A DNA stretch of 64,000 nucleotides from Melanopsichium pennsylvanicum (Eukaryota; Basidiomycota; Ustilaginomycetes; Ustilaginales), in the NCBI GenBank assembly GCA_900208305.1, contig OAPG01000013.1, positions 615,550-679,549 of the forward strand, read 5' to 3'. A program made the translations under genes and the position numbers. Of this stretch, positions 3,084-64,000 are shown one piece after another; within the stretch, counting starts at the first letter, position 1, and the number at the start of each line of letters is the position of its first letter. The notes beneath the pieces are model-generated. The model saw nothing but the letters and a program-made list of their open reading frames with translations. It was not told the origin of the DNA and searched no databases.

Positions 3084-6000
3084 ATGGTACCATGTCCTAC
3101 TCCCAAGCCTAACACATCCAAAAACGCTGCAGAAACTCCTAATCAAGGCAAGCTCACCTCCTTCTTCACAAGATCAGCTGCAGCCGCCGCCTCTTCGCCT
3201 TCCTATTCATCCAATGACTTGGCCTCGTCGCAAGCTTCACCTTCTGCATCCAGACTTACCAGATCCTCGCCTGTCAAGCAGTCACCTGTAAAGAAGGAGA
3301 CACTCGCTCGAGCCATCCAAGTCATTTCCGACTTGGAGTCTGAATCCGACTCTGACTCTGACAACGGTTTTTTCAGAGGAGGACCTAGTCATCGTCGCAA
3401 GGCCATGTCCGATAGCGACGATGATTTCAGACCTGAAAAGCACGCCGATATTGAAGATGATGAGCACGATCTCGACCTCGACCTTGACCACGACCTCGAC
3501 CTCGACCTCGATCACGACCATCATGATGATGACGGTGATCTAAGCTCAGAACACAAGCTCCAAGACGACGCAGACCATACCGATTCGTCCCGTCAGCACA
3601 ATATTGAGGATCGTTCTGCCACCCCATCCACAAGCATGCCAGAGACCCCAGCAGACTCTGATTCTTCAAAATTTGGCTACTTTTTCGGTTCGGAACCCAT
3701 CGTCGTGCTAGGCGACAAAAAGACCCCTCTAGCACCCATCTCCAACCTGCTTCGTTCTTCTTCGCAACGTTCCCTCCGCTCAGCTGGTCCCCCCTCAGCT
3801 GCGCCTAAAAAGTTGTTCCCCCTCTTCAAAAGCCCGCCTGCCAAGTCGAAACCATCCCGAGCGGCTCTCCAAGACGAGCATGACTTCCTCGATGATGACG
3901 ACGATAACCATGAAAGCTCACGTAAAAAGCGCTCAGCAGCAGCCAAAAATCGTGCCGGCGCATCTCTTCCCTCCTTCTCCAGCGGAAAAGGCTGGAAGTC
4001 CAAGTTTGCACAGCAGCGTCCCTTCCGCAAGATGTCTTTCGTCCCTTCTCCTGCAGAGATCGCCGACATGCGCACCAAGGTCAAGGAAAAGGCGGAGGCC
4101 AATCTATACCCACCTATCCATCATCTCGCCGACATCTTTGGCGACATGATCGACCGTGCACCAGCTATCCTTGAACTCGCCCAGACGCTCAAGGATCGTC
4201 CGTTGCGTGTCGCTACCATGTGCTCTGGAACCGAATCGCCCTTGCTCGCTTTGGAGCTTATGTGCAGAGCCATCCACGAAAAGCACGGCGTCAGGATCAT
4301 TGTCGACCATGTCTTCTCCTGTGAGATCGAGCCTTTCAAGCAGGCATACATCGAACGCAACTTCTCGCCTCCCATCCTGTTCAGAGACGTCACCGAGCTA
4401 GGCGGCACCACAGCTCACACTGCGTATGGTGCGCTGGTCGATGTGCCAGGCGATGTGGATATCCTCATCGCAGGAACGAGTTGCGTCGACTACTCGCATC
4501 TCAACAACAGCAAAAAGGGTCTCAACGATGGTGGTGAGAGTGGACGCACTTTTAGAGGCATGCTCGAGTGGCTCATGCGTCACAAGCCTACACTCGTCAT
4601 TCTCGAAAATGTCAAGAATGCTCCCTGGGTGAGTGTCGCCGAAACTATCGTCGCCGAGGCCGGCTACGATGTTGGGTTCAGTAACACCTTTGATACCAAG
4701 AACTATTACATTCCTCACACACGTCAACGAGGTTACCTGCTTGCGTGCAGGAACAACAAGAACTCTCTTCCGCAGAATTGGGAACTCATCACCAACCTCC
4801 TCATGCGTCCCGCATCTAGCCCCCTCGATGCGTTCCTCTTGCCAACCGACGATCCCCGTATCCAACGCGTCCGTCGCCAATTCGCACATGGTCAAGGTCT
4901 CAGCAAAGGTCGTTCCACCATTGACTGGTCCAAATGTCAATCTCGACACGAACGTGCACGTGACGAGGAGGAACTTGGCAAGACGCGCCCGCTCACCGCT
5001 TGGGAAGAGGGCGGTACGTGCAAAATGTCGCACGACGGCTGGAACGAGTGGGCTGTGCGTCAACCTGAACGTGTCACCGATCTGCTCGACATCACCACCC
5101 TTCGTTTTGCTGCGCTGGGTCAAGACCCGATCTACAAGTCCAAGATCTGGGAGCTTTCGCAAAATGTCGATCGTAACGTCGCTGCTTCCAGACCTGGAAT
5201 TGCTCCCTGTCTCACACCATCTGGCATTCCATTCCTCACATCGAGGGGGGGTCCTTTGATTGGATTGGAGGCGCTCTCTTTGCAGGGTTTGCCATTGGAC
5301 GAGCTGCTGCTGACCAGGGAGACGGATGATCAGTTGCAGGATCTGGCGGGTAACGCCATGAGCTCTACCGTCGTTGGCGCCTGTGTGCTCGCAGCCTTGC
5401 TTGTCGGTATGGACGATCTCAAACAGGACGGAGAGAAGAGAAAGGCAGCCAAGCTCTCGGCCGAGGTCAAGAAAGAGACCGAGCTCAAGAGCACCAGCCA
5501 GGTCGTCGACAAGATCGTCGTTGACGAGCACAAAAGCGCGATCGCTCACGATGAGCTTCTCGCCGCTCAGCCGCTGGATCTCACCTCGAGCAAGCGCGTT
5601 TCGATGCCAAACCTGCTCGCTGCCGCAGTCAACAGTGCCCAGCTGTGCAATTGCGAAGGCCGTAGCCGTGTCGTCGACGTTCCTGTCCACCGCTGTGCCG
5701 AGTGCGATCACACGGCGTGTGAAACCTGCAAAGGTCGACCTATCCACAGGTTCATCCCGGATACTCTCACTCGCTCTAAGCCAGATGACTTTGCTCCGCT
5801 GCTCAAAAAGGCTCTTCCCATGCGTCTCGAAGCGACAGGTTTGACGAACCAACTCATTTCACAGCTCATGAAGGATCTTGCTTTTGCCAGCGATTCTGTG
5901 GCCAAGCGATGGAGCAAGCGCGTGGTCGAGGTGCTTGAGAGTGCCGAGTTCCGTTTCCAGTCCTTGCTCCGACAAAAGATCTGGCAAGCTCAGTTTGCTG

Positions 6001-9000
6001 CACCGGGTGCACGCCTGGATCTTGTCCTCGATCCCATCGAACCGCACTGGCGTATTCTCGTCGATCCTGCCGTCGATGAACCGGCTGGAAGCCCGTTGCG
6101 AAAGTTGCTCATCCAGCCCGTTGCGCGCATGCCTCTCGATCCCAGGGCTGCAGAAGTGGATCTTCTTCACGGCAAATGGGAGCTCTGCCTCCCCACCACC
6201 GAGATCGTCACGGTCACAGTCAAGAGCACGGGTCCGCAGGTACAGACGTGGCAAAGCGCCATGGGTCTTGGTGGCAAGTTTGTTGACAAGTTGCGATACT
6301 CTGAAATGCACGTTAGCGTTCCAGACCAAGTCAAGAACCTGTTGGATGCCGAGATCGATGGTGCCTACGATCTGCTCGAGCAGTGCGGTACTGCTTGTGG
6401 TGCCTTGCACGTCAAGAGGGGTGATCGGGATACACCGAACAGAAGAAAGTTGTTCCTGTTCATCGATACGGATCGCTTCAAGGACCAGTCTGCCGACAGG
6501 TTTGTGTTTTCTGCCGACACTTCCAGGTGGCCCTACCCTCTCGAGAGAGTTTCTGTAGCTCAGCTGGAGCCTGGGTGGCGACCGACGCTCGCAGAGTTCG
6601 ATAAAGACCAAGTGGAGGAGAAGGTCAAGATGACCATCTCGGGCACTTGGAGCAAGGTGGAAGCCTTCGCTGTGCGTGCTGGTACTGGGTTGGATGGCAA
6701 GATGGCGATCCCGCAGCAGACGTACGATTTGGATCTTGGTCAAGAGGATTGCACTTCTTCTGTAGCAGTGCTGACGTGCGAAGCGCCGGTGTTGGGACGT
6801 GGCATGGACCGTATCTGGCCAGCAGATGGAGTTTGGGGCCAAGTGGATCTGCTTCACAAGACCAACACCACCTTTGGTCACCTGTCTTGGCTCGTCGAAC
6901 GTCTACCAGACATTGAGGCTCTCGACGCTTGGATGCCCGCCAAACACGATCTCTTTGACTGCGCTACCGCCAACTGCGCCCGCTGTGCACCCTCCGAACC
7001 CGACATCCAGTGGTTGACCATCCCAGGCAAACCAGTCATTCCAGTGGAGAACACGATGCAGGCAGGTCCGTACGAGCAGGCACTCAAGAACCGTCCTTCG
7101 CCGTTTGTGGTTCAGCTGCGTCTCAAGCATGATGTGGCCCAAGTGCGATTCGGTGTCAACGCCGCTTCGTTGATGCATCGTGCTGTGTCGCGCTTGCCCT
7201 CATCCAAGAATGCGGGTGGTGTGGAACTCTCGTGGCGCTTGACAAAGCTCGACCGTTCGATCGACATGTTCCGTCTGCCTCGCTACACTCTTTGCAGCAA
7301 CAGGCAGGACGTCGAAGCACCCACTCCGGAGCTTTTTGCATTGCAATTGCGACGAGAACAGAAACGTTCGCTCACGTGGATGCTACAGCAGGAGCAAGCC
7401 AATGTACAGCCGTTTCACGAGGAGGAGATCTCGGAAGGTCTTCTCGATCCTCTTGGTTGGCGTGCAGAGGGTCGAGCCGTTCGTCCTGTGACGGTTCGAG
7501 GTGGTGTGCTGGCTGACGCTGTCGGTTACGGTAAGACATGCATCTCGCTCGCTCTGATTGCGTCTTCTCCGCACCGAAAAGAGCTCCCCGCGCTTCCCGC
7601 CGGTGAAGATGGCACCTACATTCCCACCAAGGCCACGCTCATCATCGTACCTGGCCACCTGTGCAAACAGTGGGAGAAGGAAGTACGCAAGTTCTGCGGC
7701 AAGAAACTCAGCGTACGTGTCGTCACGTCCAAAACCGAACTCAACCGCCTCACGGTGCGCGAGGTGCTCAACTGCGATATCCTCATCATGTCCGTGACCG
7801 TTTATAGGAGCGATGCGTACTGGGAGACGCTTGCTTCCATCGCAGCGAGCAACCCTTTGCCGAACAAGGCGGGTCGATTCTTCAACGCTGCACTCAAAAA
7901 GAGTCTGGAAGCGTTGAAGAACAGGGTCAAGGAGTTGACGGGTGAAAGCGGTGTCAAGCAGCTGCTTCGTTCGATTAAGCACAAGGTGGATTTCGACGAC
8001 TCGCACCTGACTACGCACAAGGCTCGCTCGAGGTTGAAAGGTAAGGCGTATGCCGATGCCGCTGCTGCCAAGGGTGACAACGACGATGATGATGACAGTG
8101 ATCAAGACGAAAAGGAGCTCGCAGCAGCCGCTAAGAAAGGAACCAAATACAAGGCTCTTCCTAAAGAACTCCAATCTTCCAATAAAAAGGATCCCGATCC
8201 GTGGTCTCTCTCGTCCTCCTTGGTGCAGCGGGATTGGCACAACATGACGTGCCCCCCGTTGGAAATGTTCATGTGGAACCGAGTGATTGTCGATGAATTT
8301 CACTATATTGGCGAAACAATGGATCGCACACTCGCTGGTGTCATTTCGCTCCAAGCCCGTTCGAAATGGATCCTTTCGGGTACACCACCTACTGCCGATT
8401 TTGCCGATGTCAAAAGCATCGCAGTATTCCTCAACGTCCATCTGGGTGTGGATGACGATGCAGACACCACTAAAGATTCGGTACGTAAGGCGAGGGAGAA
8501 GATGCGAACCGCGGCTGAAAAGTTCAACAACTTCCGCGAGATGCATTCGCCAGCTTGGCACCATCGAAGGCAACAAGTCGCGCAACGTTTCCTGGATCGA
8601 TTTGTCAGGAGCAACGAGCCAGAGATTGGAGAGTTACCGAGTCAACAGTTGATCAAACCGATTCGTTTGCCAGCGGCCGAGAGTGCGCTGTACTTGGAAC
8701 TAGCTCATGCGATTGAAAATTTGGACTTGAGGCATCATAGGAAAGTGTTCAAGGCAAGACCCAAGGTTAAGGCAGCCACAGCAAAGATGGTGGCAGCCAA
8801 GGAGATTATCGATGATGATGACGACTCTGATTCCGATTCGGGTAAGAAGAAAGCCAAGAAGACGGGCAAGGAGGTGAAGCTGAAAGAAGGCGATCCAAAG
8901 TTGGAAATGTCTCATCGAGATCAACGACTGATTGATACACTCGGTTCTTCCGCCTCGCCCGAAGAAGCGTTGCTCAAACGAGCTTCTGTGTACGATGACT

Positions 9001-10637
9001 TTGCCGGAGTTGACTTGGACGCTATGCAAGGAGTGAACAATGCCATCAAAGCATGCGAGTACATTGTTCGTGAACGTCGCAAACAGCTCGTCGACTGTCG
9101 TCAACAGCTCGAACGAGAATTGCCCATCGCTCTCGAACAGCACTTTTTGGTTCTTCACCACTTTGGATACCGTGATGAAAATCGACAGGCATTTGCTGAT
9201 TACGTTCGTAATGCGCACAATGCGGCGTGGGGAGACAAAGAGTCCAAGAAGATGGTTCGCGAAATCCTCGATGCCGCCAACTGTACCATGGCTTCAGTGA
9301 CTCGTTCGGCGGCCAAGGCGCATTTCTCGAAACCGGGTGTGCTCCAAACTGCGCTCAAACGTAGGGCAAAGCAACGCGCTGCTTTGGAGAAAGGTAATGC
9401 AGGAGGAGCGGGGGTCGATGATGAAGCGGGTGAGAAGGGTAAAGTTGACTCTAAGGCTGCAGCTTGGGCGGAGGAGTATCACCTTCGCGCGCTCGTCCAT
9501 CAACTCACACGTCTTAGAAACGAATTGGTGGGACGAGTCAACGCTCTTCGCTTCTTCACCATGATCCGAGATTGTCAACGTGCGCATCTCGAAGGTGTAC
9601 ACGTCCAAGTGGTTTGTCCCGCCACCAAGTGCAAGCACGGTGCAAAAACTTTAGCGCTGAGTGAGGTCAGTATTAGTTCCACATGCGGACATAGTGGATG
9701 CAGGGAATGCGTTTTGAAGGAAGCGTACATTGGTAAATGTCCCACCGAAGGTTGTGCCGCATTGGCGAAACCGACGAGCATTGTTCAAGCCTCTTCGCTC
9801 GGTGCTGAAGATGATGGGAAAGCCACCCGGTATGGAACCAAACTCGCTCTTCTCTGCGCTCTGCTTGGAAAAATTCCAAACACCGAAAGGGCGCTGGTGT
9901 TTTGTCAGTTCGAGACACTCACAGCTACCGTTTCCGAAGCGCTTTCCGCCTACGGAATTTCATACGTTCAATTAACCGGAACAGCAAAGAGGAGATCCGA
10001 ATTGCTCGAAGCGTATCAAGAAGAATCGGGTGCACGTGTACTTTTGTTAAACGTCGAAGACGAAAGTGCCGCCGGTTCCAATTTGACGGTTGCCAACCAC
10101 GTCATCTTTGTAGGACCTCTGTTGAAACAAGAACAACAACAGTACGAAGCAACCATGACGCAAGCCATCGGAAGATGTGTTCGTTACGGTCAATTGAAAA
10201 AAGTGTTTGTATGGAGGTTGATAAGCATGCAAACCATTGATCAAGAGGTGTTGGAGAAGAGGGAAAAGTTGAAAATTGTCTCCACTACCAATGTGGAGGA
10301 TGCCAAAGTTGAAACAAGTAGTGCTAGTGTGGATAAGGGTGAAGAGGTTGTTGATGCCAATGGAGAAATGATCAAGTCAAATTTGATTGTAGAGGAGTTG
10401 GAGAAGGAGTTTACCAAGGCAATAGGAGGTCTGTTGGTTTTGCAAGATGTTACAATGCTCAAGAGGAAATGGGGAGGGGAAGAGGAAGGGGCAAAGGGCA
10501 AGAGCAAGAGCAAGAGCAAGAGGCAGGTTGCGAACAAGAAGAAGAGCAGACATAGTGCTGCTGATAGCAATGACAAAGATGAAGAGGAGGTAGCAGAAAT
10601 GAGTGTAGATGAAGAGCACAACAGCAATGACATATAG
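3084..10637 (+). CDS. DNMT5: DNMT5-type cytosine-5 DNA methyltransferase with RING and SNF2 ATPase
   Basis: A single uninterrupted frame of 2517 residues. The N-terminal 370 residues are low-complexity, with a canonical PCNA-binding motif QGKLTSFF at 21-28 and an Asp/Leu-Asp/His tract near 125-155; I see no chromodomain. The C5-methyltransferase follows. Motif I is MCSGTES (about 379-385). The catalytic Cys is C467 in GTSCVDYS, the DNMT5 replacement for the usual PCQ loop. ENV is at 508-510, a QRGYL element follows, and motif X is AGNAMSS. A Cys-rich segment lies near 855-886. The SNF2 half has Walker A GYGKT (K1484), DEFH at 1737-1740, a RING-like Cys/His cluster near 2178-2225, then the helicase C lobe with an IGRCVRYGQ motif VI. 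Characterised DNMT5 uses ATP to maintain CpG methylation on hemimethylated DNA. The last ~150 codons are strikingly CpG-poor. Confidence 0.93.
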   Translation: MVPCPTPKPNTSKNAAETPNQGKLTSFFTRSAAAAASSPSYSSNDLASSQASPSASRLTRSSPVKQSPVKKETLARAIQVISDLESESDSDSDNGFFRGGPSHRRKAMSDSDDDFRPEKHADIEDDEHDLDLDLDHDLDLDLDHDHHDDDGDLSSEHKLQDDADHTDSSRQHNIEDRSATPSTSMPETPADSDSSKFGYFFGSEPIVVLGDKKTPLAPISNLLRSSSQRSLRSAGPPSAAPKKLFPLFKSPPAKSKPSRAALQDEHDFLDDDDDNHESSRKKRSAAAKNRAGASLPSFSSGKGWKSKFAQQRPFRKMSFVPSPAEIADMRTKVKEKAEANLYPPIHHLADIFGDMIDRAPAILELAQTLKDRPLRVATMCSGTESPLLALELMCRAIHEKHGVRIIVDHVFSCEIEPFKQAYIERNFSPPILFRDVTELGGTTAHTAYGALVDVPGDVDILIAGTSCVDYSHLNNSKKGLNDGGESGRTFRGMLEWLMRHKPTLVILENVKNAPWVSVAETIVAEAGYDVGFSNTFDTKNYYIPHTRQRGYLLACRNNKNSLPQNWELITNLLMRPASSPLDAFLLPTDDPRIQRVRRQFAHGQGLSKGRSTIDWSKCQSRHERARDEEELGKTRPLTAWEEGGTCKMSHDGWNEWAVRQPERVTDLLDITTLRFAALGQDPIYKSKIWELSQNVDRNVAASRPGIAPCLTPSGIPFLTSRGGPLIGLEALSLQGLPLDELLLTRETDDQLQDLAGNAMSSTVVGACVLAALLVGMDDLKQDGEKRKAAKLSAEVKKETELKSTSQVVDKIVVDEHKSAIAHDELLAAQPLDLTSSKRVSMPNLLAAAVNSAQLCNCEGRSRVVDVPVHRCAECDHTACETCKGRPIHRFIPDTLTRSKPDDFAPLLKKALPMRLEATGLTNQLISQLMKDLAFASDSVAKRWSKRVVEVLESAEFRFQSLLRQKIWQAQFAAPGARLDLVLDPIEPHWRILVDPAVDEPAGSPLRKLLIQPVARMPLDPRAAEVDLLHGKWELCLPTTEIVTVTVKSTGPQVQTWQSAMGLGGKFVDKLRYSEMHVSVPDQVKNLLDAEIDGAYDLLEQCGTACGALHVKRGDRDTPNRRKLFLFIDTDRFKDQSADRFVFSADTSRWPYPLERVSVAQLEPGWRPTLAEFDKDQVEEKVKMTISGTWSKVEAFAVRAGTGLDGKMAIPQQTYDLDLGQEDCTSSVAVLTCEAPVLGRGMDRIWPADGVWGQVDLLHKTNTTFGHLSWLVERLPDIEALDAWMPAKHDLFDCATANCARCAPSEPDIQWLTIPGKPVIPVENTMQAGPYEQALKNRPSPFVVQLRLKHDVAQVRFGVNAASLMHRAVSRLPSSKNAGGVELSWRLTKLDRSIDMFRLPRYTLCSNRQDVEAPTPELFALQLRREQKRSLTWMLQQEQANVQPFHEEEISEGLLDPLGWRAEGRAVRPVTVRGGVLADAVGYGKTCISLALIASSPHRKELPALPAGEDGTYIPTKATLIIVPGHLCKQWEKEVRKFCGKKLSVRVVTSKTELNRLTVREVLNCDILIMSVTVYRSDAYWETLASIAASNPLPNKAGRFFNAALKKSLEALKNRVKELTGESGVKQLLRSIKHKVDFDDSHLTTHKARSRLKGKAYADAAAAKGDNDDDDDSDQDEKELAAAAKKGTKYKALPKELQSSNKKDPDPWSLSSSLVQRDWHNMTCPPLEMFMWNRVIVDEFHYIGETMDRTLAGVISLQARSKWILSGTPPTADFADVKSIAVFLNVHLGVDDDADTTKDSVRKAREKMRTAAEKFNNFREMHSPAWHHRRQQVAQRFLDRFVRSNEPEIGELPSQQLIKPIRLPAAESALYLELAHAIENLDLRHHRKVFKARPKVKAATAKMVAAKEIIDDDDDSDSDSGKKKAKKTGKEVKLKEGDPKLEMSHRDQRLIDTLGSSASPEEALLKRASVYDDFAGVDLDAMQGVNNAIKACEYIVRERRKQLVDCRQQLERELPIALEQHFLVLHHFGYRDENRQAFADYVRNAHNAAWGDKESKKMVREILDAANCTMASVTRSAAKAHFSKPGVLQTALKRRAKQRAALEKGNAGGAGVDDEAGEKGKVDSKAAAWAEEYHLRALVHQLTRLRNELVGRVNALRFFTMIRDCQRAHLEGVHVQVVCPATKCKHGAKTLALSEVSISSTCGHSGCRECVLKEAYIGKCPTEGCAALAKPTSIVQASSLGAEDDGKATRYGTKLALLCALLGKIPNTERALVFCQFETLTATVSEALSAYGISYVQLTGTAKRRSELLEAYQEESGARVLLLNVEDESAAGSNLTVANHVIFVGPLLKQEQQQYEATMTQAIGRCVRYGQLKKVFVWRLISMQTIDQEVLEKREKLKIVSTTNVEDAKVETSSASVDKGEEVVDANGEMIKSNLIVEELEKEFTKAIGGLLVLQDVTMLKRKWGGEEEGAKGKSKSKSKRQVANKKKSRHSAADSNDKDEEEVAEMSVDEEHNSNDI

Positions 10638-53610: not shown

Positions 53611-54585
53611 TGTTGAACGCTGTGTCAGCGGTCGCGTGCCAGAGATCCGAATTCCCGTGAGAAAGCGCGACTCGCCGGATTTCAGTGAGTTCCGGCGGTT
53701 AGGCTTGGCCTCAACGGATATCGAAGAGAATCCCGCGAGTGGCGATCTCTCGACGGATATCGGCTGACCGCTGGTGACACTCCGTACAGAGGTAACGCGG
53801 CAAGCTCGGACGGGGTATTCGGTCGACGCGAGTGTCACGACGTCGACGGGATACTGCTGATGGCTGGGTTAGACCTCAGCCGTCGTTGCCGGTGGAGATA
53901 TGAGGGACTGGTTGTGGTGCCAGGCCCGCGGTTGAGGTTCCGCCTGTAGTTGAGGTGCTACAGCGTCGATTGTGGTGTCGACGACGTCTATACGTTGTTC
54001 TCCGTTCACCGACGGGGACACAGACTATATGGATCGCAATAAATGGTATTGCGATGTGCGACGTGTGAAGAGTATGGTAAGTACAACGTACTGATAACTA
54101 TGTGTGACTGAGATATAAGATAGAGTGGATGAGCTTCCGCTCATCCGATAGCGGGGAACAGAGTATTTATATATATGTATTGTGTGCGAGGTCCATCGGT
54201 ACTGTACGACCTGCGTGCGTCAAGCTTGGACCCCCGCACGATAAGACTGCCCCTAGCCCTTCGGCAGGGTGCTTCCGAGCACGCCCGCGTGCTCTCTCTC
54301 CGTTGCCCCCTGGGCGTCGGTCGGCCCACGTGTTGCTCCGGCTGGCGTTGGTCGCCGCCGTCGCAGATGCTCCCCTTGCCATCAATACCTTCGATATCCG
54401 GCGAGTCACTGCCACTCGCCGAATTTCCGTGAGATCCGTCGAGACCTGCTCTCTCACCGGATTTCGTCCGATTCAACTTCTCGGTTCTGCGCTAACCTTA
54501 AATCCCATGAGCCCACCAATATCCACCAGATCTCCCTGAGATCCGTCGAGACATGCTCTCCCACCGGATCTCAGCCGATTCAACA
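53611..54585 (-). mobile_element. Full-length LTR of retroelement family 2 (copy A)
   Basis: Ends form the inverted pair TGTTGAAC...GATTCAACA. The sequence from 53623 is repeated almost perfectly from 54589. A TATA-rich stretch (TATTTATATATATG, about 54164-54177) and the hairpin GGATGAGCTTCCGCTCATCC (54127-54146) lie inside. The right third contains two diverged ~80 bp tandem sub-repeats ending GATTCAACTTCT and GATTCAACATCT. Strand is inferred from the position of the antisense gene in the neighbouring internal region. Confidence 0.8.
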
Positions 54586-54588
54586 TCT

Positions 54589-55352
54589 TGTCAGCGGTCG
54601 CGTGCCAGAGATCCAAATTCCCGTGAGAAAGCGCGACTCGCCGGATTTCAGTGAATTCCGGCGGTTAAGCTTGGCCTCAACGGATATCGAAGAGAATCCC
54701 GCGAGTGGCGATCTCTCGACGGATATCGGCTGACCGCTGGTGACACTCCGTACAGAGGTAACGCGGCAAGCTCGGACGGGGTATTCGGTCGACGCGAGTG
54801 TCACGACGTCGACGGGATACTGCTGATGGCTGGGTTAGACCTCAGCCGTCGTTGTCGGTGGAGTTATGAGGGACTGGTTGTGGTGCCAGGCCCGCGGTTG
54901 AGGTTCCGCCTGTAGTGGAGGTGCTACAGCGTCGATTGTGGTGTCGACGACGTCTATACGTTGTTCTCCGTTCACCGACGGGGACACAGACTATATGGAT
55001 CGCAATAAATGGTATTGCGATGTGCGACGTGTGAAGAGTATGGTAAGTACAACGTACTGATAACTATGTGTGACTGAGATATAAGATAGAGTGGATGAGC
55101 TTCCGCTCATCCGATAGCGGGGAACAGAGTATTTATATATATGTATTGTGTGCGAGGTCCATCGGTACTGTACGACCTGCGTGCGTCAAGCTTGGACCCC
55201 CGCACGATAAGACTGCCCCCTAGTCCTTCGGCAGGGTGCTTCCGAGCACGCCCGCGTGCTCCCTCCCCGTTGCCCCCTGGGCGTCGATTGGCCCACGTGT
55301 CGTTCCGGCGTGGCGTTGGTCGCCGCCATCGCAGATGCTCCCCTTGCCATCG
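54589..55352 (-). mobile_element. LTR of family 2 (copy B), left piece
   Basis: Near-identical to 53623-54380 with a few substitutions and two single-base insertions. It lacks the first 12 bases of copy A and follows copy A after only TCT. It is cut at 55352 by the chromovirus insertion and resumes at 62992. The hairpin is conserved at 55093-55112. Confidence 0.85.
55348..55352. repeat. Target-site duplication CATCG (left)
   Basis: CATCG directly precedes the TGTTAGGG end of the inserted element and recurs at 62987-62991 after its CACTAACA end. The uninterrupted copy A has CATCAATACC at the same place, which confirms a 5 bp duplication. Confidence 0.95.
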
Positions 55353-55782
55353 TGTTAGGGCTGTAGGGTCTAGATACCGCGGGCGGCTACAGCCGGGATG
55401 GAGGCTACGGGTACGGAGAGGTCGTAGGCGGGGCGACACAGGCGGTCGGGGGTCAGAGCACACTACTGCGTTGCTATAGAGCTAACTAAGTAATACATGC
55501 AACGAGGTCCGGAGGCAACCTCATGTCAGGCGGGGGCGGGGTGGTAAGGTACAGGAACTATCGGTCACTTCCCACCGCGGCGTTACAATGTTAGGTTGCC
55601 GACGGTCGTATCCTACGTACGGAGGGACCAGCCGCGGTTGGGCGGTAGGAGGATCGTGTCAGGCCGACCGCTCCGCTGCGAGGGGTCCGGAGAGGGTCGG
55701 TCGGGGCCCGATCACGACGATCGCTCAATCGGGAGGGGGGCCGAGCACCCCCTCTTTGGACTCCGGTTGGTAGGCACTAACA
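55353..55782 (-). repeat. 3' LTR of the chromovirus
   Basis: 430 bp, TGTTAG...CTAACA ends. It differs from the 5' LTR in the candidate primer segment: TACATGCAAC here, TACATGCGAC there. Confidence 0.93.
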
Positions 55783-56084
55783 TTACCCCCCGGTTCAGGC
55801 CGACTGGTCCCCAGGCGGCTGATAGGACAGGAGGGCGAGGGGGGTCGTACTCCCTCAACCTTAATCCGCGCCAGGGGCGCCTCTCTGTACAAGTTGCGAC
55901 GCTCGTCTCGGCAATTTAATCGCGGATGCGCAGCAATGAGGCAATACCACCCACAATGCCTTGGACCGGCGGAATTGACTGTGCGCCATTGCTCGTGCGT
56001 AGCTATCGAGGAGGGATATAAGGATGGGGTTCGACGGGTCTTCCTTCTCGATTTCCCCCATTCTTCCCCATTCTTTTTTTCGCA
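55783..56084 (+). other. Element 3' end / upstream region of the antisense gene
   Basis: Holds the polypurine tract (on the minus strand) and the presumed promoter and leader of the plus-strand passenger gene, ending in T-rich stretches. No coding frame of its own. Confidence 0.5.
56017..56021 (+). promoter_or_regulatory. TATA box of the antisense passenger gene
   Basis: GGGATATAAGGATGG with TATAA at 56017-56021, 64-68 bp before the first ATG at 56085. The equivalent gene near the telomere has TTAAATA 61-67 bp before its ATG. Confidence 0.5.
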
Positions 56085-57539
56085 ATGTCGTCGCCACCAG
56101 CAGACGCTTCCTTGGATTGTCTTTTTTTTGCAATGTCGTCGTCACCAGTAGACGCTCCCATGGATTCCCCGGCCGACAACCCGTCGGCCGGTGTCAGTAC
56201 CGTTCCCCCTCCATCGCCTACGACCGCAACGGCGGCAGCGTCGGCAACAGCAGCAGCAGCGACAACAACAACAGCACCAACAACAACAACAACGTTACCC
56301 GCTTCCGGAGGTGAGTCAATCGTGGTTCCGTCGTGATTCGGTTGCGGATGGGGGCCCAGAGGGCCTGACAACCACCGGTCGGTGCCGTGGAATGGGTTAC
56401 TGACGTTTGTTCCCTCCCCCTTGTTTCGATTACGACAGATCGGCCGTCGGAGACCTCCGCTGGTCCCATCCGGGGGGTGCGCCGTTCTCCGCGTGCTCAC
56501 CTTTCCCGGGGGGCCAACTCGGGCCGTCGCAAGCGCGCCGTGCGTCAACAGTCTGCCGATCCGTCGGCCATTCCTTCCTCTGCATCGACCAACACTTCCC
56601 TCGTCCTGGCGCCCCGGAATTCGATGCCGTGGTCGCGTCCTTCGGTTCCCATTGAGATCACTCCGGAACTCGTTGGTGATGGTAAGTATTTGTTCCATTG
56701 CTGTGTTGATTGGGATCGCTACTGACGTTTGTGTTTCCGTGGCCGATACGACAGACCTTGCCCCGCTATGGGCCGAGACGTGGGGCGATTGCTACGCCTG
56801 CATATGCGCCGGCGTTGCCTGTGAGCGGGCGGGAGGCGATCTCCGCTGCCGTCGGTGTCAGGGGCACCACGGGCAACCCTGCGACGCGGATATGCGCGGT
56901 AAGTATTTCCGTCGGGCGTCTGTCGCAATGTCTTGGGTGGTCGGCTGACTCTTGTTCCTCCTTTTGTTTTCCTCGACAGTCCCACCACTTGGCGGTGCCC
57001 AAGGTCCCCTCCGAATGAGGGTTTACGCGTGCTTGCTTGAGAGGTGGAGGTCCGGAGGGGTCGGTCGGCGTCGCCGCCCCCACCCCAACGTCAGGTTGTC
57101 GCTGAGGACACTTGGCGAGATCCCGGAGGAGGAGGAGGAACTGAGGGAGGAGGTGGCTTGGGTGGGCGCGGTGGGTCGGGAGCGGGAGGCGGCTCGCAAG
57201 CGAGCTAGGTCTCGCCCCGACCGTCCAGCCGAGGCTGCCCGAGAGCGGCGCCGCACTCGGGCGCGGGCCCAAGGCCAGCCGGAGGAGTCCGCTATGGGCC
57301 TGGGGGATCTGGGTGCGGCCGTAAGGCGTGCCGAGTCCCTCTTCCACGGGGTGCAGGAGGGGACTGAGTTATTTCAACAGGGGCTGGCCGACGTGGCTGC
57401 GCTGTTGCTGACAGAGTCGCTGAGGACCGGCGGCGAGCGAGAGCTCCGCCGGATCAGCGAGATCCAGCAACTGTCGCAGAACACGCGACAGCAGGTGGAC
57501 GTGGTCTGGGCGTGGTTGGAGGGCTTCCTGAGGGACTAG
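56085..57539 (+). CDS. Spliced antisense passenger gene: Zn2Cys6-like, Arg-rich coiled-coil protein
   Basis: Exons 56085-56310, 56439-56681, 56755-56898 and 56980-57539 join to 390 residues with no internal stop. Introns of 128, 73 and 81 bp have donors GTGAGT, GTAAGT and GTAAGT, acceptors ACGACAG, ACGACAG and TCGACAG, and a CTGAC branch 29-35 bp before each acceptor; all are phase 1. Exon 1 encodes a Ser/Pro/Thr/Ala-rich N-terminus, with a 48 bp duplication giving two in-frame starts (M1, M17). Exon 2 is basic (GRRKRAVRQ). Exon 3 holds a cysteine module C-X2-C-X6-C-X8-C-X2-C-X7-C, the spacing of fungal Zn2Cys6 DNA-binding domains. Exon 4 is Arg/Glu-rich and probably coiled coil, ending WLEGFLRD. 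It lies convergent to pol inside the retrotransposon. I recognise no named family; DNA binding is inferred from the Cys spacing. Confidence 0.75.
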
Positions 57540-60500
57540 CCCCGGGGCCCCTCCTCAAATGCATTTGTTTTCTTTTCTGTCGCTTGCGTGTGTGTGTGTC
57601 CGTGTGTGGGAGTGGGGGTGAGGGGAGCCCGACCGGGTCTCCTACTCCAGAGGTCGGGGACCAGAGGGGTTTTGGCTCCGGCAGGGGGGTCTCCCGACGG
57701 CGACCGTCGCTCGTATCCGTGCCTAACGCCGGGTAGGGGCCGGCTTGGTCGGGTTCGCGGCGTGGTACGCAGCGACCAGATCCGGGGCGCGGTCCACGTC
57801 TTCCGCCGGGACCCAGCTTGGGGGTACCCTACCCAGGAGACCTTGTACTGTAGGCGTCCGGCGCGGCGGCGGGAGTCCAATACGCCCTCGACTTCGAAAT
57901 CGGCGTAGTCGTCCTCCAGAGTAGTCGGTTGGGGGGCGTCGCTGGACTCCCTGACTCCGTCGGGGTATGGCTCCAGCATCTGTACGTGAAAGACGGGATG
58001 GACCTTCCACGACGGAGGCAGGAGGAGTCGGTAGGCTTGGTCGCTAATCACCTCGTCGACTTTGAACGGGCCGGCGAGGGGGTTGGAGAGCTTGTGGGAG
58101 GGTCGGTCGCTGCGGAGGTGCTTGGTACGGAGGAGCACCAGGTCCCCCCGGCGGAACGAGACGTCGCTCCTGCGACGGTTAAACCACTTTGCGACGGCAA
58201 GGTTAGCTTTGGCGATGGCGTCCTGGCACACCCGCACTTTATCCGCCGACGGAACGCTGGAGGTGGCCGGGGGGATGGAGGGGTGTGCCCGAGGTGCAAA
58301 TGTGAAGCAAGCTATAGCCGGGGCGATGGTTGTGGTCGCCAACGGTCTTTGGTTCAGCGCGAGCTGGGCTGTCGGCAGGAGGGTTGCCCAGTCGCTGTGG
58401 TCGTAGGCCGTATAGAAGCGGAGGAACAACTCCAGCGTCTGGTTGGCTCGCTCGGTTTGGCCATTTGTTTGAGGGTGGTAGGCCGACGAGTAAGACCCTT
58501 TAATCCGGAGGGCCCGGAGGAGTTCCGTCCAAACGGAAGCTACAAACGTGGTTCCCCGGTCAGATACAATGGTGTCCGGGAGGCCAAAGTATGAAAAGAC
58601 GTAGCGGTGGAGCTGGTACGCCAAAGTCTCCGCCGTATCGGTTTTGTTTGCAGGAATGAAGACCACAAACTTGGTGAGGCGGTCGACGACTACGAGAATG
58701 GAGTTGTAGGTGGTGCCGTTGGCAAGGGAGGGCGGGAGGTCAGTGATGTGGTCCATGGTAATAGTGGACCAGGGCCGATCGGGAGGGACCGACGGGAGAA
58801 GGTAGCCGTGGGGTTTGTGACGGGGGTGTTTTGCCCTTCGGCAGGCCGCGCAAGAGGCGACATAGCTGTCGGTGTCCTGCACCATGGTTGGCCAGTAAAA
58901 ACGTTGACGCATGAGATGGAGGGTCGTCTTGCGGCCAGGATGTCCCGCCGTAGGGTGGTCGTGCAGTAGGTGGAGTGCCTTGTCCCGTAATTGGGGTGGC
59001 AGGTAGACGTGACCCTCTGTGGTGTACGGGACACCATTGCAGACGGCAACGTTTGGGGGGAGGTTGGCCGCTTTCCGGAGGGTTTCGATCCACTCCGTAG
59101 GCAGGGGGTCCAAGGAGTGTACGCCGGCTGCCCTTGCAAACAAGTTTGCAGGGAGGAGAGTGGCTTGGTTGGCGGGGTCTGGGCGCGACGGTCCGTCGGG
59201 GAACAAGTCGTGCCGGCGACTCAGAGCGTCGGGGCGGACGGCCTCCTTACCCGGACGGTAGTGGAGGACGAAGTCGAACTCAGCCAGGTCGGCTTGCCAG
59301 CGGGCTTGGCGACGGTTGAGTTGTCGCTTCGTCTGAAAATACTGGAGCGCTTGGTGGTCGGTGTAAATGAGGAACGGTCGGATGAGGCCATGGAGGTAGT
59401 GTCTCCAAGCGCCGCAGGCGTCTACGATAGCCAGGAGTTCCTTGTCGTGGATTTCGTAGTTACGCTCCGCCGGGATCATCTTTTGCGACCAGTATGCCAC
59501 AGGATGGAGGGTATGCAAGCGGCTGTTGGGCCCGGCGCTCGCGTCGGCGCCCGGCTGTGGGTGCCACTGCGACAGCACGGCGGCTACCACAGCATCGCTT
59601 GCGTCTGTTTCGACGACGGTGTAGAGCGTTGGAGAGAAGTGCCGGAGGATAGGGGCAGAGGTGAACGCTTCTTTCAGCCGGTTGAAGGCTGCCGTTGCTT
59701 CCGGGGGCAGATCTACCTTTCCGGAGGCTCCTCCTTTCAGGAGGTCGGTGAGGGGGGCCGCTACACGAGAGTAGTGGCGGATGAAGCGACGGTAGAAGTT
59801 GGCGAATCCGAGGAAGACTTGGATCTGTCGGATCGACTGTGGTGGCGGCCACTCCAAGACTGTACTGACCTTGGTTGGGTCCATGGAGAGGCCGTCGGGA
59901 CTGACGAGGTAGCCGAGGAACTCGACGGAGTCGGTGTGGAATTTGCATTTGTCCGGAGCGCAATACAGCTGATGCTTCCGTAATTGATCCAACACTTGGC
60001 AGACGTGGTGGTGGTGGTCGGCCTCGTTGTCGGAGAAGACTAGGATGTCGTCCAGATATACGATGACGGACACGTCTAAGAGATCCAACAGCACGTGGTT
60101 CATGAGCCGTTGGAAGGTCGCCGGAGCGTTGCAGAGGCCAAACGGCATGACAAGGTATTCGTAGCTGCCGTAGCGCGTGCGGAATGCGGTCTTCCATTCG
60201 TGGCCGGGGGCGATCCGGAGGAGGTTGTAGGCACCCTTCAGGTCAAATTTAGTGAAGATCTTGGCCGTCGCCAGCCGATCAAGGTGTTCGGAGATGAGGG
60301 GGATCGGGTAGCGATCCTTGACGGTGATGGCGTTGAGGGCGCGGTAGTCCACACACGGCCGGAGGCGACCGTCCTTCTTTGGTACAAAAAGAAGGGGCGC
60401 GGCAGCTTGGCTACTCGACGGTCGGATGAAGCCAATGGCCTGCATCTTCCGGAGGTAGTTCCGGAGCTCCTCTTGTTTGCGGTGCAACAGGGAGTAGAGT

Positions 60501-61291
60501 GCGCCGTAGGGAGGGGTTTTGCCAGCCTCCAGGTTGATCTCGTGGTCGTGTGGGCGGTGGGGAGGCAATTGGTCGGCCCTCTTGGCGTCGAAGACGTCGG
60601 CGTACTCGCGGTACTCTGGCGGTAGGACGGCGATGTCGGTCGCGGAAGTTTGGAGGGGCAGTAGCTCCTCTTCCGGTTCTGGGAGGACCAGCAGGTCCTC
60701 CTCAGTGGAGACCAGCTGTCGCCGGCCGACCAAGTTGTGGAGTTCGTTCTTTTCGATTTTGGGGTTGGAGGGCACCGTGACGGTGTGGGGGACCCGGAGG
60801 TCCCACGTACGGAGGGTATAGTTTGGCTCCGGCCTGGCGGCCTCGATCCAATCCATTCCCAACAGCACGTCGTGGGAGGTCATGGGGGTGATGAAGAGTC
60901 GGTGGCGTGAGGTGATGCAGTGGTTGTTGATGATGATATCCACCGCCGCGTGGCGACTGATGGCGGCCGACATGCCCTGGAGGAATGTGGCGTGGACGGA
61001 TTTACGGAGGGAGTGGGTAGGAATGTTGGCCGTTGCGACCATTTTGGGAGTAATGAAAGAAGCGGTGGCGCCGGTATCGAGCAAGGCAAGGCCTTGCGTG
61101 TCGCCGACGCTTACCAAGCATTCGTAGGTTGGTAAGGTAGGGTGTCGATGGATCCGGAGAACGGATCCCTCTTGCTCCACGACGGGAGTGTCGGTCCGGT
61201 GGGCTGCCCAGAATGCTGCGGCGAGCACCCGGAGCTGGCTTAGGTTGTCGATGGGTTCGGACCGAAGGAACCCATTGACCCTTAGTTTCCC
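57536..61291 (-). CDS. pol: Chromovirus pol (protease, RT, RNase H, integrase, damaged chromodomain)
   Basis: Reached from gag by a -1 frameshift at 61291-61285. The frame is open from there without needing an ATG, and the first in-frame start-like codon, 61228, is GTG. Counting from 61228: protease LLDTGATASF (about 49-58); RT with YLDDILVF (about 390); RNase H with ETDASD and KELLAIVDA; integrase zinc motif HDHPTAGH...CAACRRAK, the D,D-E core (MDHITD about 823, VSDRGTTF, TNGQTERANQ about 925); and a GPY/F module LAGPFKVDEV. A chromodomain begins EGVLDSRRRAGRLQYKVSW (about 1120). At 57820-57824 (five G on plus) the frame leaves the expected chromodomain sequence, which continues in another frame to a stop at 57723. 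The listed stop, 57536, is therefore aberrant and overlaps the passenger gene's end. Confidence 0.92.
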   Translation of the reverse strand, partial: GKLRVNGFLRSEPIDNLSQLRVLAAAFWAAHRTDTPVVEQEGSVLRIHRHPTLPTYECLVSVGDTQGLALLDTGATASFITPKMVATANIPTHSLRKSVHATFLQGMSAAISRHAAVDIIINNHCITSRHRLFITPMTSHDVLLGMDWIEAARPEPNYTLRTWDLRVPHTVTVPSNPKIEKNELHNLVGRRQLVSTEEDLLVLPEPEEELLPLQTSATDIAVLPPEYREYADVFDAKRADQLPPHRPHDHEINLEAGKTPPYGALYSLLHRKQEELRNYLRKMQAIGFIRPSSSQAAAPLLFVPKKDGRLRPCVDYRALNAITVKDRYPIPLISEHLDRLATAKIFTKFDLKGAYNLLRIAPGHEWKTAFRTRYGSYEYLVMPFGLCNAPATFQRLMNHVLLDLLDVSVIVYLDDILVFSDNEADHHHHVCQVLDQLRKHQLYCAPDKCKFHTDSVEFLGYLVSPDGLSMDPTKVSTVLEWPPPQSIRQIQVFLGFANFYRRFIRHYSRVAAPLTDLLKGGASGKVDLPPEATAAFNRLKEAFTSAPILRHFSPTLYTVVETDASDAVVAAVLSQWHPQPGADASAGPNSRLHTLHPVAYWSQKMIPAERNYEIHDKELLAIVDACGAWRHYLHGLIRPFLIYTDHQALQYFQTKRQLNRRQARWQADLAEFDFVLHYRPGKEAVRPDALSRRHDLFPDGPSRPDPANQATLLPANLFARAAGVHSLDPLPTEWIETLRKAANLPPNVAVCNGVPYTTEGHVYLPPQLRDKALHLLHDHPTAGHPGRKTTLHLMRQRFYWPTMVQDTDSYVASCAACRRAKHPRHKPHGYLLPSVPPDRPWSTITMDHITDLPPSLANGTTYNSILVVVDRLTKFVVFIPANKTDTAETLAYQLHRYVFSYFGLPDTIVSDRGTTFVASVWTELLRALRIKGSYSSAYHPQTNGQTERANQTLELFLRFYTAYDHSDWATLLPTAQLALNQRPLATTTIAPAIACFTFAPRAHPSIPPATSSVPSADKVRVCQDAIAKANLAVAKWFNRRRSDVSFRRGDLVLLRTKHLRSDRPSHKLSNPLAGPFKVDEVISDQAYRLLLPPSWKVHPVFHVQMLEPYPDGVRESSDAPQPTTLEDDYADFEVEGVLDSRRRAGRLQYKVSWVGYPQAGSRRKTWTAPRIWSLRTTPRTRPSRPLPGVRHGYERRSPSGDPPAGAKTPLVPDLWSRRPGRAPLTPTPTHGHTHTQATEKKTNAFEEGPRG
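57820..57824 (-). other. Frame-breaking homopolymer in the chromodomain
   Basis: The C5 run on the coding strand (plus G5) is one base short of what would keep the chromodomain open. The neighbouring frame then reads SWVPAEDVDRAPDLVAAYH, the normal chromodomain end, to a stop at 57723-57725. It could be a real mutation, a frameshift site or an assembly error. Confidence 0.7.
61251..61291 (-). promoter_or_regulatory. -1 programmed ribosomal frameshift signal between gag and pol
   Basis: The coding strand reads GAG GGA AAC TAA. GGGAAAC (61291-61285) is an X XXY YYZ slippery heptamer in the correct phase and ends at the gag stop. After a nine-base spacer comes an 8 bp hairpin ATGGGTTC (61275-61268), 9-base loop, GAACCCAT (61258-61251). 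The -1 frame is exactly the pol frame. Confidence 0.8.
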
Positions 61292-62517
61292 TCCGGGGGA
61301 TCCTCCAAATCCGATAGGTCACTGTTGGGGTTGGAGGCTGACCCGTCATCCATGGGGTTGACGAGTATAGTCCCGGAATTGTTGTCAAATGAAATAGCAT
61401 GTGCCCGGAGAGTTTGTGTTTGGGGTGCCTTCGGGCAGTCACGGGCCAAATGGTCGCTGCCACCGCAGCCAAAGCACTGCCCGTTGGTCCGTTGGTGCTG
61501 GCGGAGGCGTTCCGCCGCATCACGCGTAGGGTCCTTGGCCGGTAGTGGAGGTCGTTCCATTTTGCGGGGTCCCTCCGGAGGCTCTCGTTTGGCCGTCACG
61601 GCTGGGAGGGGCGGTCGGTGTCGCAGCTGTGACTCCGAGGGTCTTGTCGTGGCCTCCTGTATCACCTGCATCCGGCGCTCCGTGACAATGGCGGCGTTGA
61701 TGAAGTCACGGATGTCGGTCATCGGCACGTGGGTGAGCTTTTCCCGTAGGCGCGGCCGGAGGCTTTGTTCGAACAGCATCAACGCCTGCTGCTGGTCGGT
61801 CAGGTGCGATTTGGCCGTCAGCGACATGAACTCCGCCGCGTGCTCCGATACCGATCCCTTCTGGCGGAGGGCATTCAGTTGGAGGCGTGCGGTGTAGCTG
61901 GGGTCGGGATCGCCATGGACGCGACGGAGGTCGGCGCAAAAGGCCCTCCAGGAGCTCATCCAGGGCGGATCCTCCCCCTCCTGTTGTCGCACATTGCGAA
62001 TGCGGGTTCGTGGTTTGCCCGTCATGTTGCCGATGGCAAACATGATGCGACGGGCATCCGTCGGAAACTTGGAGGGATTAGCCTCGAAGTTGAGTTCGCA
62101 TTGATCCAAGAAGTCCTCCAGTTTGTCTTGGCTGCCGTCCCATTCCGGAGCCTGGAGTCGAATCTCTGGCTCGCGGGGCGCGGCCTCCACGTAGACGGGG
62201 GCTACGGTTGGCGGGGGGACCTGGGCAGCGGTTGCTCCTTGGTAGTGCTGGGAAGACTCCGGTCTAGGTTGATCCTCCCTGGGGAAGAAGGCGGCCTCTA
62301 GCAGAGCGGTAATGCGCCGCTGTTGTTCAGAGGTTTCACGCAGAAGCGCCAGGATATCCACTTGCCCTTGGACCAAGGTGGTCAGGGCGGCGGGCGGTTT
62401 GCCCGAGGGTGCAACAACGCTGGCGGGCTCGTCTCCGCTGGGGGAGATGGTGGGGGCGTCTCCCTCCGCTTGGGGGGGGGCGTCCGTTTGGTTTCGTCGG
62501 TTGGAGCGTGTACTCAT
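61282..62517 (-). CDS. gag: Chromovirus Gag (capsid/nucleocapsid)
   Basis: 411 residues from the ATG at 62517; the frame upstream of it is LTR and leader sequence. The N-terminus is polar. A retrotransposon Gag core (about 150-300) contains LEDFLDQCELNFEANPSKF and ARLQLNALRQKGSVSEHAAEF, then a basic region. A single CCHC zinc knuckle CFGCGGSDHLARDC lies near the C-terminus, which binds the genomic RNA. The last residues are DPPEGN before TAA. Without frameshifting this is the major product. Confidence 0.9.
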   Translation of the reverse strand: MSTRSNRRNQTDAPPQAEGDAPTISPSGDEPASVVAPSGKPPAALTTLVQGQVDILALLRETSEQQRRITALLEAAFFPREDQPRPESSQHYQGATAAQVPPPTVAPVYVEAAPREPEIRLQAPEWDGSQDKLEDFLDQCELNFEANPSKFPTDARRIMFAIGNMTGKPRTRIRNVRQQEGEDPPWMSSWRAFCADLRRVHGDPDPSYTARLQLNALRQKGSVSEHAAEFMSLTAKSHLTDQQQALMLFEQSLRPRLREKLTHVPMTDIRDFINAAIVTERRMQVIQEATTRPSESQLRHRPPLPAVTAKREPPEGPRKMERPPLPAKDPTRDAAERLRQHQRTNGQCFGCGGSDHLARDCPKAPQTQTLRAHAISFDNNSGTILVNPMDDGSASNPNSDLSDLEDPPEGN

Positions 62518-62556: not shown

Positions 62557-62986
62557 TGTTAGGGCTGTAGGGTCTAGATACCGCGGGCGGCTACAGCCGG
62601 GATGGAGGCTACGGGTACGGAGAGGTCGTAGGCGGGGCAACACAGGCGGTCGGGGGTCAGAGCACACTACTGCGTTGCTATAGAGCTAACTAAGTAATAC
62701 ATGCGACGAGGTCCGGAGGCAACCTCATGTCAGGCGGGGGCGGGGTGGTAAGGTACAGGAACTATCGGTCACTTCCCACCGCGGCGTTACAATGTTAGGT
62801 TGCCGACGGTCGTATCCTACGTACGGAGGGACCAGCCGCGGTTGGGCGGTAGGAGGATCGTGTCAGGCCGACCGCTCCGCTGCGAGGGGTCCGGAGAGGG
62901 TCGGTCGGGGCCCGATCACGACGATCGCTCAATCGGGAGGGGGGCCAAGCACCCCCTCTTTGGACTCCGGTTGGTAGGCACTAACA
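62557..62986 (-). repeat. 5' LTR of the chromovirus
   Basis: 430 bp, same TGTTAG...CTAACA ends as the 3' LTR. It should contain the promoter for the minus-strand genomic RNA; no clear TATA box is seen upstream of the candidate primer segment. Confidence 0.93.
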
Positions 62987-62991
62987 CATCG
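62987..62991. repeat. Target-site duplication CATCG (right)
   Basis: Matches 55348-55352 exactly and continues into ATACCTTCGATATCCGG, the interrupted LTR. Confidence 0.95.
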
Positions 62992-63192
62992 ATACCTTCG
63001 ATATCCGGCGAGTCACTGCCACTCGCCGAATTTCCGTGAGATCCGTTGAGACCTGCTCTCTCACCGGATTTCGTCCGATTCAACTTCTCGGTCCTGCGCT
63101 AACCTTAAATCCCATGAGCCCACCAATATCCACCAGATCTCCCTGAGATCCGTCAAGACATGCTCTCCCACCGGATCTCAGCCGATTCAACA
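62992..63192 (-). mobile_element. LTR of family 2 (copy B), right piece
   Basis: Completes the LTR interrupted at 55352. It matches 54393-54585 of copy A closely and ends GATTCAACA. The two pieces total 965 bp against 963 bp for the matching part of copy A. Confidence 0.85.
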
Positions 63193-63197
63193 TCTCT

Positions 63198-63211
63198 GGT
63201 CTGCGCAGACC
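63198..63211. repeat. 14 bp perfect palindrome
   Basis: GGTCTGCGCAGACC, five bases inside the LTR edge of the family 2 element. It may be a transcript hairpin near the polypurine end. Confidence 0.7.
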
Positions 63212-63273
63212 CCTTCCTTGGGACCCACTCCCCTGACACTACCCCCCCTTCGAGAGCCGAGCTCCGTTGAGGC

Positions 63274-63280
63274 TTAAATA
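63274..63280 (+). promoter_or_regulatory. TATA-like site of the telomere-truncated gene
   Basis: GGCTTAAATAGGG, 61-67 bp before the ATG at 63341, followed by a C/T-rich leader ending CCGTCAAGATG. Confidence 0.4.
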
Positions 63281-63340
63281 GGGTCGGCGGGCGTTCCCCC
63301 GACTTGTTCTTCCACCAACAGCACCTTCTAAACCGTCAAG

Positions 63341-63863
63341 ATGTCGAACCACTCGAATAATGCCCCTTCTGCTGCGTCATCGCGACCAGCGTCGACACGA
63401 CTGCCTGCCCTCAGGGCAGAAGAGCCTGTGCGCCGTAGCGCCAGGCTTTGCAACCGAAATCCTGCCACTTGGGCAGTGACAACACCTTTGGCTGTCGGCC
63501 TCGAGGCCACAGCTTTGTCGTCCCCTGCTGCTGGCGAGCAGCCCATCGAAATCGTGGCTGCCGAGCAGCTCGTTGCGTTGCGGTCAACGCCGCGACCACT
63601 GGAGCCGTTGTTCCTGGGGAGCGATGCCGCAGGGGAGGAGGAAGAGCAGCTGGAGGCAATGGAGGTGGAGGAGTCGGTTGTAGGGAGGGTGAGCGAGGCC
63701 GGGGAGGACCCTGTCGCTCTGCTCGTTGGGCCTTGTGTGCCAAACCACTTCGAGATCGCGCTGTGGGCGGAGTCCTTTATCGCTCTGGTGTTGCTGGTAT
63801 TCGTGGCGTGCGAGGCCTGGCCCCCTACTTGGGAGGTATCGGAGGGTTCCGTGACGGCTGGGT
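63341..63863 (+). pseudogene. Truncated family 2 passenger gene running into the telomere
   Basis: From the ATG (CAAGATGTCG) the frame is open for about 174 codons without a stop. It starts MSNHSNNAPSAASS, has a basic PVRRSARLCNRN segment, an acidic GEEEEQLEAMEVEESV stretch and a hydrophobic LALVLLVFVACEAW-like segment. It then continues into the TTAGGG array, which reads as Arg-Val repeats to the window end. A GTGAGC donor-like site at about 63688 means part may be intronic. Position just inside an LTR, strand, TATA spacing and a low-complexity-then-basic N-terminus parallel the passenger gene at 56085. No sequence-level homology is established by eye. Confidence 0.5.
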
Positions 63864-64000
63864 TTAGGGTTAGGGTTAGGGTTAGGGTTAGGGTTAGGGT
63901 TAGGGTTAGGGTTAGGGTTAGGGTTAGGGTTAGGGTTAGGGTTAGGGTTAGGGTTAGGGTTAGGGTTAGGGTTAGGGTTAGGGTTAGGGTTAGGGTTAGG
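63864..64000 (+). repeat. Telomere, TTAGGG repeats
   Basis: About 23 perfect TTAGGG units run to the end of the window, joined to unique sequence at GACGGCTGGG|TTAGGG-like junction (63857-63868). There is no other subtelomeric repeat or RecQ-type helicase gene between element and telomere. The G-rich strand runs 5'->3' outward, so this is a genuine right-hand chromosome end. Confidence 0.97.

Follow-up and report, generated by a model that had tools for sequence, protein, structure and literature searches.

A probable spliced protein gene antisense to gag-pol in a Ty3 chromovirus of the smut Melanopsichium pennsylvanicum

Antisense open reading frames between pol and the 3' LTR (aORF-3R) have been described in maize Grande (gene23), rice RIRE2, Silene Retand and PvRetro13, and excerpts of the same sources report for Grande an own promoter and a nuclear protein (PMC7264820, PMC11963269). 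In fungi, Boty-like elements of Botrytis and Sclerotinia carry the antisense gene brtn (Zhao et al. 2011, as cited in parts of PMC7264820, PMC8365987 and PMC4227169). Among retroviruses, HBZ of HTLV-1 and APH-2 of HTLV-2 are antisense genes with spliced transcripts, whose products are nuclear regulators of the element (excerpt of PMC10186651). Antisense genes in this position are, going by these excerpts, established for plants and for the Boty-like elements of fungi, and the role of such accessory genes in LTR retrotransposons is treated there as an open question (PMC7264820, PMC11963269).

Here we analyze a further case in a smut fungus. The window, a stretch of 64,000 nucleotides, is part of contig C13 of the 21.1 Mb genome of Melanopsichium pennsylvanicum and ends on the right in a TTAGGG telomere. 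It contains a retrotransposon on the - strand, element A (Table 1), which is flanked on both sides by the target duplication CATCG and whose LTRs show 3 differences. The order gag, protease-RT-RNaseH-integrase and chromodomain between LTRs identifies it as a Ty3/gypsy chromovirus. In gag, the Pfam families Ty3_capsid and Retrotrans_gag score over their cut-offs and zf-CCHC slightly under its own; the Chromo match in the window copy is partial and likewise under cut-off (19.6 vs 25.1 bits). The pol open frame spans 1260 aa in the window copy vs 1198 aa in 15 other compared copies, and the near-abutment of pol stop and antisense stop seen in the window is not general across copies. Element A appears to have inserted into the LTR of an element of a second family, B, whose own antisense gene, to the right of element A, is truncated by the telomere. 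Left of element A (53623-54888) lie two stretches of family B LTR type, with 966 bp between them. Elsewhere in the window (2907-10637, +), a 2576-aa open frame combines C-5 DNA methylase and SNF2/helicase domains, which we take to be the make-up of a DNMT5-type methylase.

Table 1. Coordinates in the window of element A, its antisense gene and the adjoining family B element
Feature	Position	Strand	Remarks
3' LTR of element A, 430 bp	55353..55782	-	LTR pair, left side
TATA-like TATAAGG	56017..56023	+	identical in 28/28 aligned copies; putative promoter
Exon 1	56085..56310	+	start 56085 or 56133
Intron 1, 128 nt, phase 1	56311..56438	+	CTGAC at 56400
Exon 2, 243 nt	56439..56681	+	open frame
Intron 2, 73 nt, phase 1	56682..56754	+	CTGAC at 56722
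Exon 3, 144 nt, six-cysteine module	56755..56898	+	missing from deposited model MEPE_05065
Intron 3, 81 nt, phase 1	56899..56979	+	CTGAC at 56945
Exon 4 with Arg-rich stretch, stop TAG	56980..57539	+	open frame
pol open frame, stop to stop	57536..61318	-	Pfam: protease, RT, RNase H, integrase, partial chromodomain
gag with CCHC knuckle	61282..62517	-	Pfam; start codon picked by eye
5' LTR of element A, 430 bp	62557..62986	-	LTR pair
Remaining family B element	62988..63866	+	LTR part, C-run 63239 (polypurine-tract side), antisense ATG 63341

An earlier, sequence-only reading had placed four exons on the strand opposite gag-pol, between pol and the 3' LTR, with 390 residues in frame, three phase 1 introns and a complete cysteine module in exon 3. 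This description is borne out. The LTRs and the mapping of pol confirm the location, which is that of an aORF-3R, and the four + strand exons (56085-57539) join without a stop through 390 codons. The donors of introns 1 to 3 have the consensus forms GTGAGT, GTAAGT and GTAAGT and the acceptors read CAG; the branch A of CTGAC precedes the acceptor G by 35, 29 and 31 nt, respectively, as claimed (29-35 nt). Exon 3 codes for C-X2-C-X6-C-X8-C-X2-C-X7-C. Since the lengths of exons 2 and 3 are divisible by three, skipping either leaves the frame intact, and the predicted protein has 390 aa, or 342 aa without exon 3. It begins with a part rich in proline, serine and threonine and has its arginine-rich stretch in the last exon. 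Of the two in-frame starts, the first is absent from 7 of 28 copies.

At this place NCBI already lists a gene, MEPE_05065 (P0001, 326 aa), as uncharacterized. Together with MEPE_05912, MEPE_04496 and MEPE_00722 (P0001-P0004) it represents the same gene in four copies, all called uncharacterized. The MEPE_05065 model starts at the second ATG (56133), starts vary among the four, and all omit exon 3, which could mean that the cysteine module is optional or that the models are mistaken. MEPE_04496 (P0003) and MEPE_01710 (P0006) start at an upstream ATG (MPWTGGID, 55956), which conflicts with a start placed near the TATA-like box. In MEPE_01710, exons 2-3 of the gene are joined to a part with staphylococcal-nuclease and Tudor domains, possibly an element-host fusion or an annotation artefact; A-type exon 2-3 matches lie at G000:C3:506750-507218.

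By DNA search, the antisense gene occurs in at least 44 places of the genome, at least 36 of them near full length. We aligned 28 of these 36 copies, drawn from 30 loci after two (L048, L060) were dropped as partial or rearranged. The frame is open from ATG to stop in 27 copies, and the three introns are present in every one. Their lengths vary (128-130, 72-73 and 80-81 nt) and leave the frame unharmed. Donor GT is found in 27/28, 28/28 and 28/28 copies for introns 1 to 3 and acceptor AG in 28/28 for each, a single donor in a single copy being the sole loss at the six splice dinucleotides; all copies have CTGAC at introns 2 and 3 and TGAC at intron 1. The six cysteines of exon 3 are likewise kept throughout. 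That the copies keep both frame and splice sites argues that the gene is more than chance. The exceptions are the one broken frame among the 28, the one lost donor and, outside the alignment, a TAG in exon 4 of two copies, C16:2819-3379 and the truncated C7:461482. A further A-type copy (L103, G000:C8:496900-499700) is cut inside exon 2, where an LTR-like stretch of a third family, C, begins. LTR dating was tried on 27 copies, of which 7 gave no 5' LTR in the stretch covered and 3 only short matches (31-136 nt); in the 17 usable ones the LTR pairs, compared over partial LTRs, are 97.1-99.7 percent identical.

Selection on the frame was assessed by moving the variants to other sites with an identical triplet context and comparing the observed ratio of nonsynonymous to synonymous variants (N/S) with that expected. 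L053, equal in sequence to L052, was left out of these tests, and L042 also of the pol test. The copies bear the mark of purifying selection: N/S in the antisense frame reaches 0.60 of the expected value (27 copies, exons from position 56160; P 0.002), and pN/pS pooled over all pairs of the 28 copies is 0.62. A stretch of pol taken as yardstick gave 0.43 (P 0.001; 26 copies), so the antisense gene, open in nearly all copies, is conserved in the manner of other element proteins. The depletion persists for variants found in two or more copies (0.62, P 0.045) and in four or more (0.36, P 0.033, n=22), and singletons are as depleted as shared variants (0.58, P 0.012). Among the other five frames, four lie at 1.09-1.48, and the mirror frame, which shares wobble positions, at 0.62. 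By exon, pN/pS is 0.92, 0.50, 0.64 and 0.54 for exons 1 to 4. Exon 1 is thus under little constraint, and the signal comes mainly from exons 3-4; in exons 1-2 alone the depletion of N/S is not beyond chance (P 0.19). Premature stops are no rarer than expected (1 vs 1.4), and the case therefore rests on N/S, splice sites and frame. Given the near-identity of the LTR pairs, part of the variation, and most singletons, should have arisen after insertion and be neutral; the depletion among singletons, at 0.58 here and 0.41 in family B, in both as strong as among shared variants, is not what a simple model of selection during transposition would predict.

Family B has an antisense gene of its own, with two exons and one intron of 70-93 nt. 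In the 23 copies with the whole gene, out of 30 loci, exon 1 measures 614 nt in all but one (605 nt), and GT-AG is found in 22. The frame is uninterrupted (353-356 aa) in 12 of the 23 and has an early stop in 11; six of the 23 (L020, L021, L026, L033, L034, L038) have in common a stop behind residue 260, which might stem from a single inherited event or from a change that recurred. N/S is 0.34-0.45 of expectation, with none as low in 1000 simulations. The deposited model P0009 has 356 aa, the same length as the two-exon model. The cysteine module of the B protein consists of C-X2-C-X6-C, 18-20 residues and C-X2-C-X7-C, with the intron falling within the module; across 13 aligned deposited proteins, two of its six cysteines vary. 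Over 13 chosen smut proteins 26 columns are invariant, a number that drops to 5 over 21 proteins and then to none as truncated models are added. Relatives occur in Ustilago hordei, U. nuda, U. tritici, U. bromivora and Ustilago sp. UG-2017a and UG-2017b, and 81 B-type proteins, those of M. pennsylvanicum counted in, were found at E 0.001. One cluster represents 75 sequences, which suggests a repeated element. Two of the proteins, P0048 (Ustilago sp. UG-2017a) and P0072 (U. bromivora), join the B-type cysteine module to another N-terminal part that is alike in both; a Pfam search at E 0.01 found no domain, and they might represent a domesticated copy.

The distance between pol and LTR differs between families. 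In the family B copy L017, the C-run beside the LTR lies at 1753 and the pol stop at 3422, about 1.7 kb apart. Family C, whose RT is 59 percent identical to that of A, has its C-run at 2278 and its pol stop at 2734 in the one copy read (L103), and the gap of about 0.46 kb leaves no space for such a gene there. Comparison of the A and B proteins by hhalign gave no sign of homology (probability 0.1 percent) in what is a weak comparison, as the A profile is built from 5 near-identical sequences (Neff 1), of which four lack exon 3. The common cysteine spacing may therefore reflect convergence, deep homology or chance.

From conserved frame, splice sites and N/S we consider it likely that element A carries a real, selected and spliced protein gene antisense to gag-pol. 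The gene would be a functional accessory gene, transcribed from its own TATA-like box and spliced in vivo at three spliceosomal introns. Sense-strand introns of a retroelement are lost on reverse transcription. In element A the splice signals are read on antisense RNA only, so that the introns would stay in the genomic RNA and be carried through reverse transcription; the earlier argument that antisense introns persist through transposition is sound and fits their presence in all copies aligned. The module of exon 3 probably binds zinc, and the protein is most likely nuclear, with nucleic acid or chromatin as its substrate, where it may tune the expression or integration of its own element. 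Such a nuclear accessory protein is the reading we favour, given the parallels of Grande gene23 and HTLV HBZ, while holding a regulatory role as such to be tentative, at somewhat less than even chances. The sequence-only reading put forward the element's LTRs, heterochromatin and host genes as candidate targets and called the gene regulated, for which the conserved TATA-like box is the one indication.

Other explanations have to be weighed against this one. The antisense transcript might work as RNA, pairing with genomic RNA over the exons, feeding RNA interference and limiting copy number, with the frame secondary. One Piwi-domain (Argonaute) locus and three RdRP loci are present in the genome, so double-stranded RNA could be used, and an excerpt of PMC7264820 considers what antisense RNA may do in elements of this kind. 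An effect of this kind could exist beside that of the protein. As the main explanation it is improbable, since it leaves aside the coding constraint on the A frame and the invariant columns of the B protein, the latter with the reservation on truncated models given above.

We see about equally little chance that a host gene was captured in reverse with its introns and rides along as a passenger, intact as the copies are young. Introns and an own TATA-like box do resemble an ordinary gene, and the LTR pairs are indeed close to identical. Against a passenger speak the depletion of N/S and the sheer number of near-full-length copies. Furthermore, no relative away from elements was seen among the own-genome matches listed or in the protein search, the P0006 fusion aside. 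That search returned 6 proteins, all from M. pennsylvanicum, with no relatives outside the species; the host-like character given to the gene by the sequence-only reading is conjectural.

The same reading had suggested a Zn2Cys6 transcription factor. Zn2Cys6 clusters (PF00172) follow the spacing CX2CX6CX5-12CX2CX6-8C, which the CX2CX6CX8CX2CX7C of exon 3 fits. Some structural likeness comes from the AlphaFold model of the B relative P0031, in which a short helix follows each CxxC, with pLDDT at 81 and 79 in the two blocks concerned; these turns look compatible with a zinc cluster in a model of mean pLDDT 53 (the two runs on the B family gave 43 and 53). The family itself goes unmatched in gene A: its protein hits no Pfam family at E 1, none of the 67 Zn_clus matches listed in the genome falls on a copy of the gene, and Zn_clus fragments appear only at E 3.5-9.4, in two of five B-type proteins. 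Foldseek with the B-family model returned 7 matches, none at E 0.001; a sequence search of solved structures found none, and the NCBIfam search nothing beyond one match at E 0.17. On the profile evidence, we reject membership in the classical fungal Zn2Cys6 family as very improbable. Just as improbable is a coding region on the sense strand, env-like or other, with the antisense frame as its shadow: a sense ORF over exons 3-4 (56766-57368, 200 aa) is open in 27/28 copies and the mirror frame carries the same N/S signal, but the sense ORF over exons 1-2 (56003-56791) has a stop before residue 215 in 21/28, the wobble-site test leans antisense without significance (6 vs 2 informative variants, 4.5 and 2.3 expected), and both the conservation of + strand splice sites, together with the variation in intron length, and family B, with its nearly fixed exon 1 and short variable intron, make antisense the preferred strand.

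Going beyond the accessory protein gene favoured above, one may speculate that the Ty3 elements of smuts make up a 'complex' class of LTR retrotransposons with a dedicated, alternatively spliced antisense regulator. Inclusion or skipping of the cysteine exon would yield nucleic-acid-binding and dominant-negative forms in an HBZ-like manner, and the antisense introns would ensure that the regulator is made from nuclear, integrated copies alone. At least two families, A and B, which differ in intron layout and have the module spacing in common, would have taken up or retained such a gene, and family C would lack it from the outset or through loss. We regard this wider scheme as unlikely, if less so than the alternatives just discussed.

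For the study of antisense accessory genes, the fungal case offers many young and mostly intact copies, clean gene boundaries and conserved splice sites. It also offers a family with a like trait (B) and one without (C, one copy read), and the host genome has retained genes for RNA interference. With Ustilago maydis as a laboratory smut, the role of such a gene is open to direct testing.

How, then, does the gene of element A relate to the described systems? Going by the descriptions in excerpts of PMC7264820 and PMC11963269, it is like the plant aORF-3R in position, orientation and presence in most copies, and unlike them in residing in a fungal chromovirus and in having three introns and a cysteine module. 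Boty-like brtn comes close in another respect, as it too lies antisense between pol and the 3' LTR in a fungal LTR element, again as far as published descriptions allow the comparison. HBZ is driven from the 3' LTR and codes for a bZIP protein (excerpt of PMC10186651), whereas the gene of element A has a TATA-like box inside the element and three introns in its coding region. Searches of open-access literature turned up no fungal LTR element with an antisense gene of several introns, and no title or opening of an abstract listed there names such a gene in any LTR element. As far as we found, what is new is the multi-exon layout together with the recurrence in a second family, brtn having been compared by position and orientation only. 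With its several introns, the gene also shows, in a natural setting, that spliceosomal introns come through retrotransposition if they are in antisense orientation.
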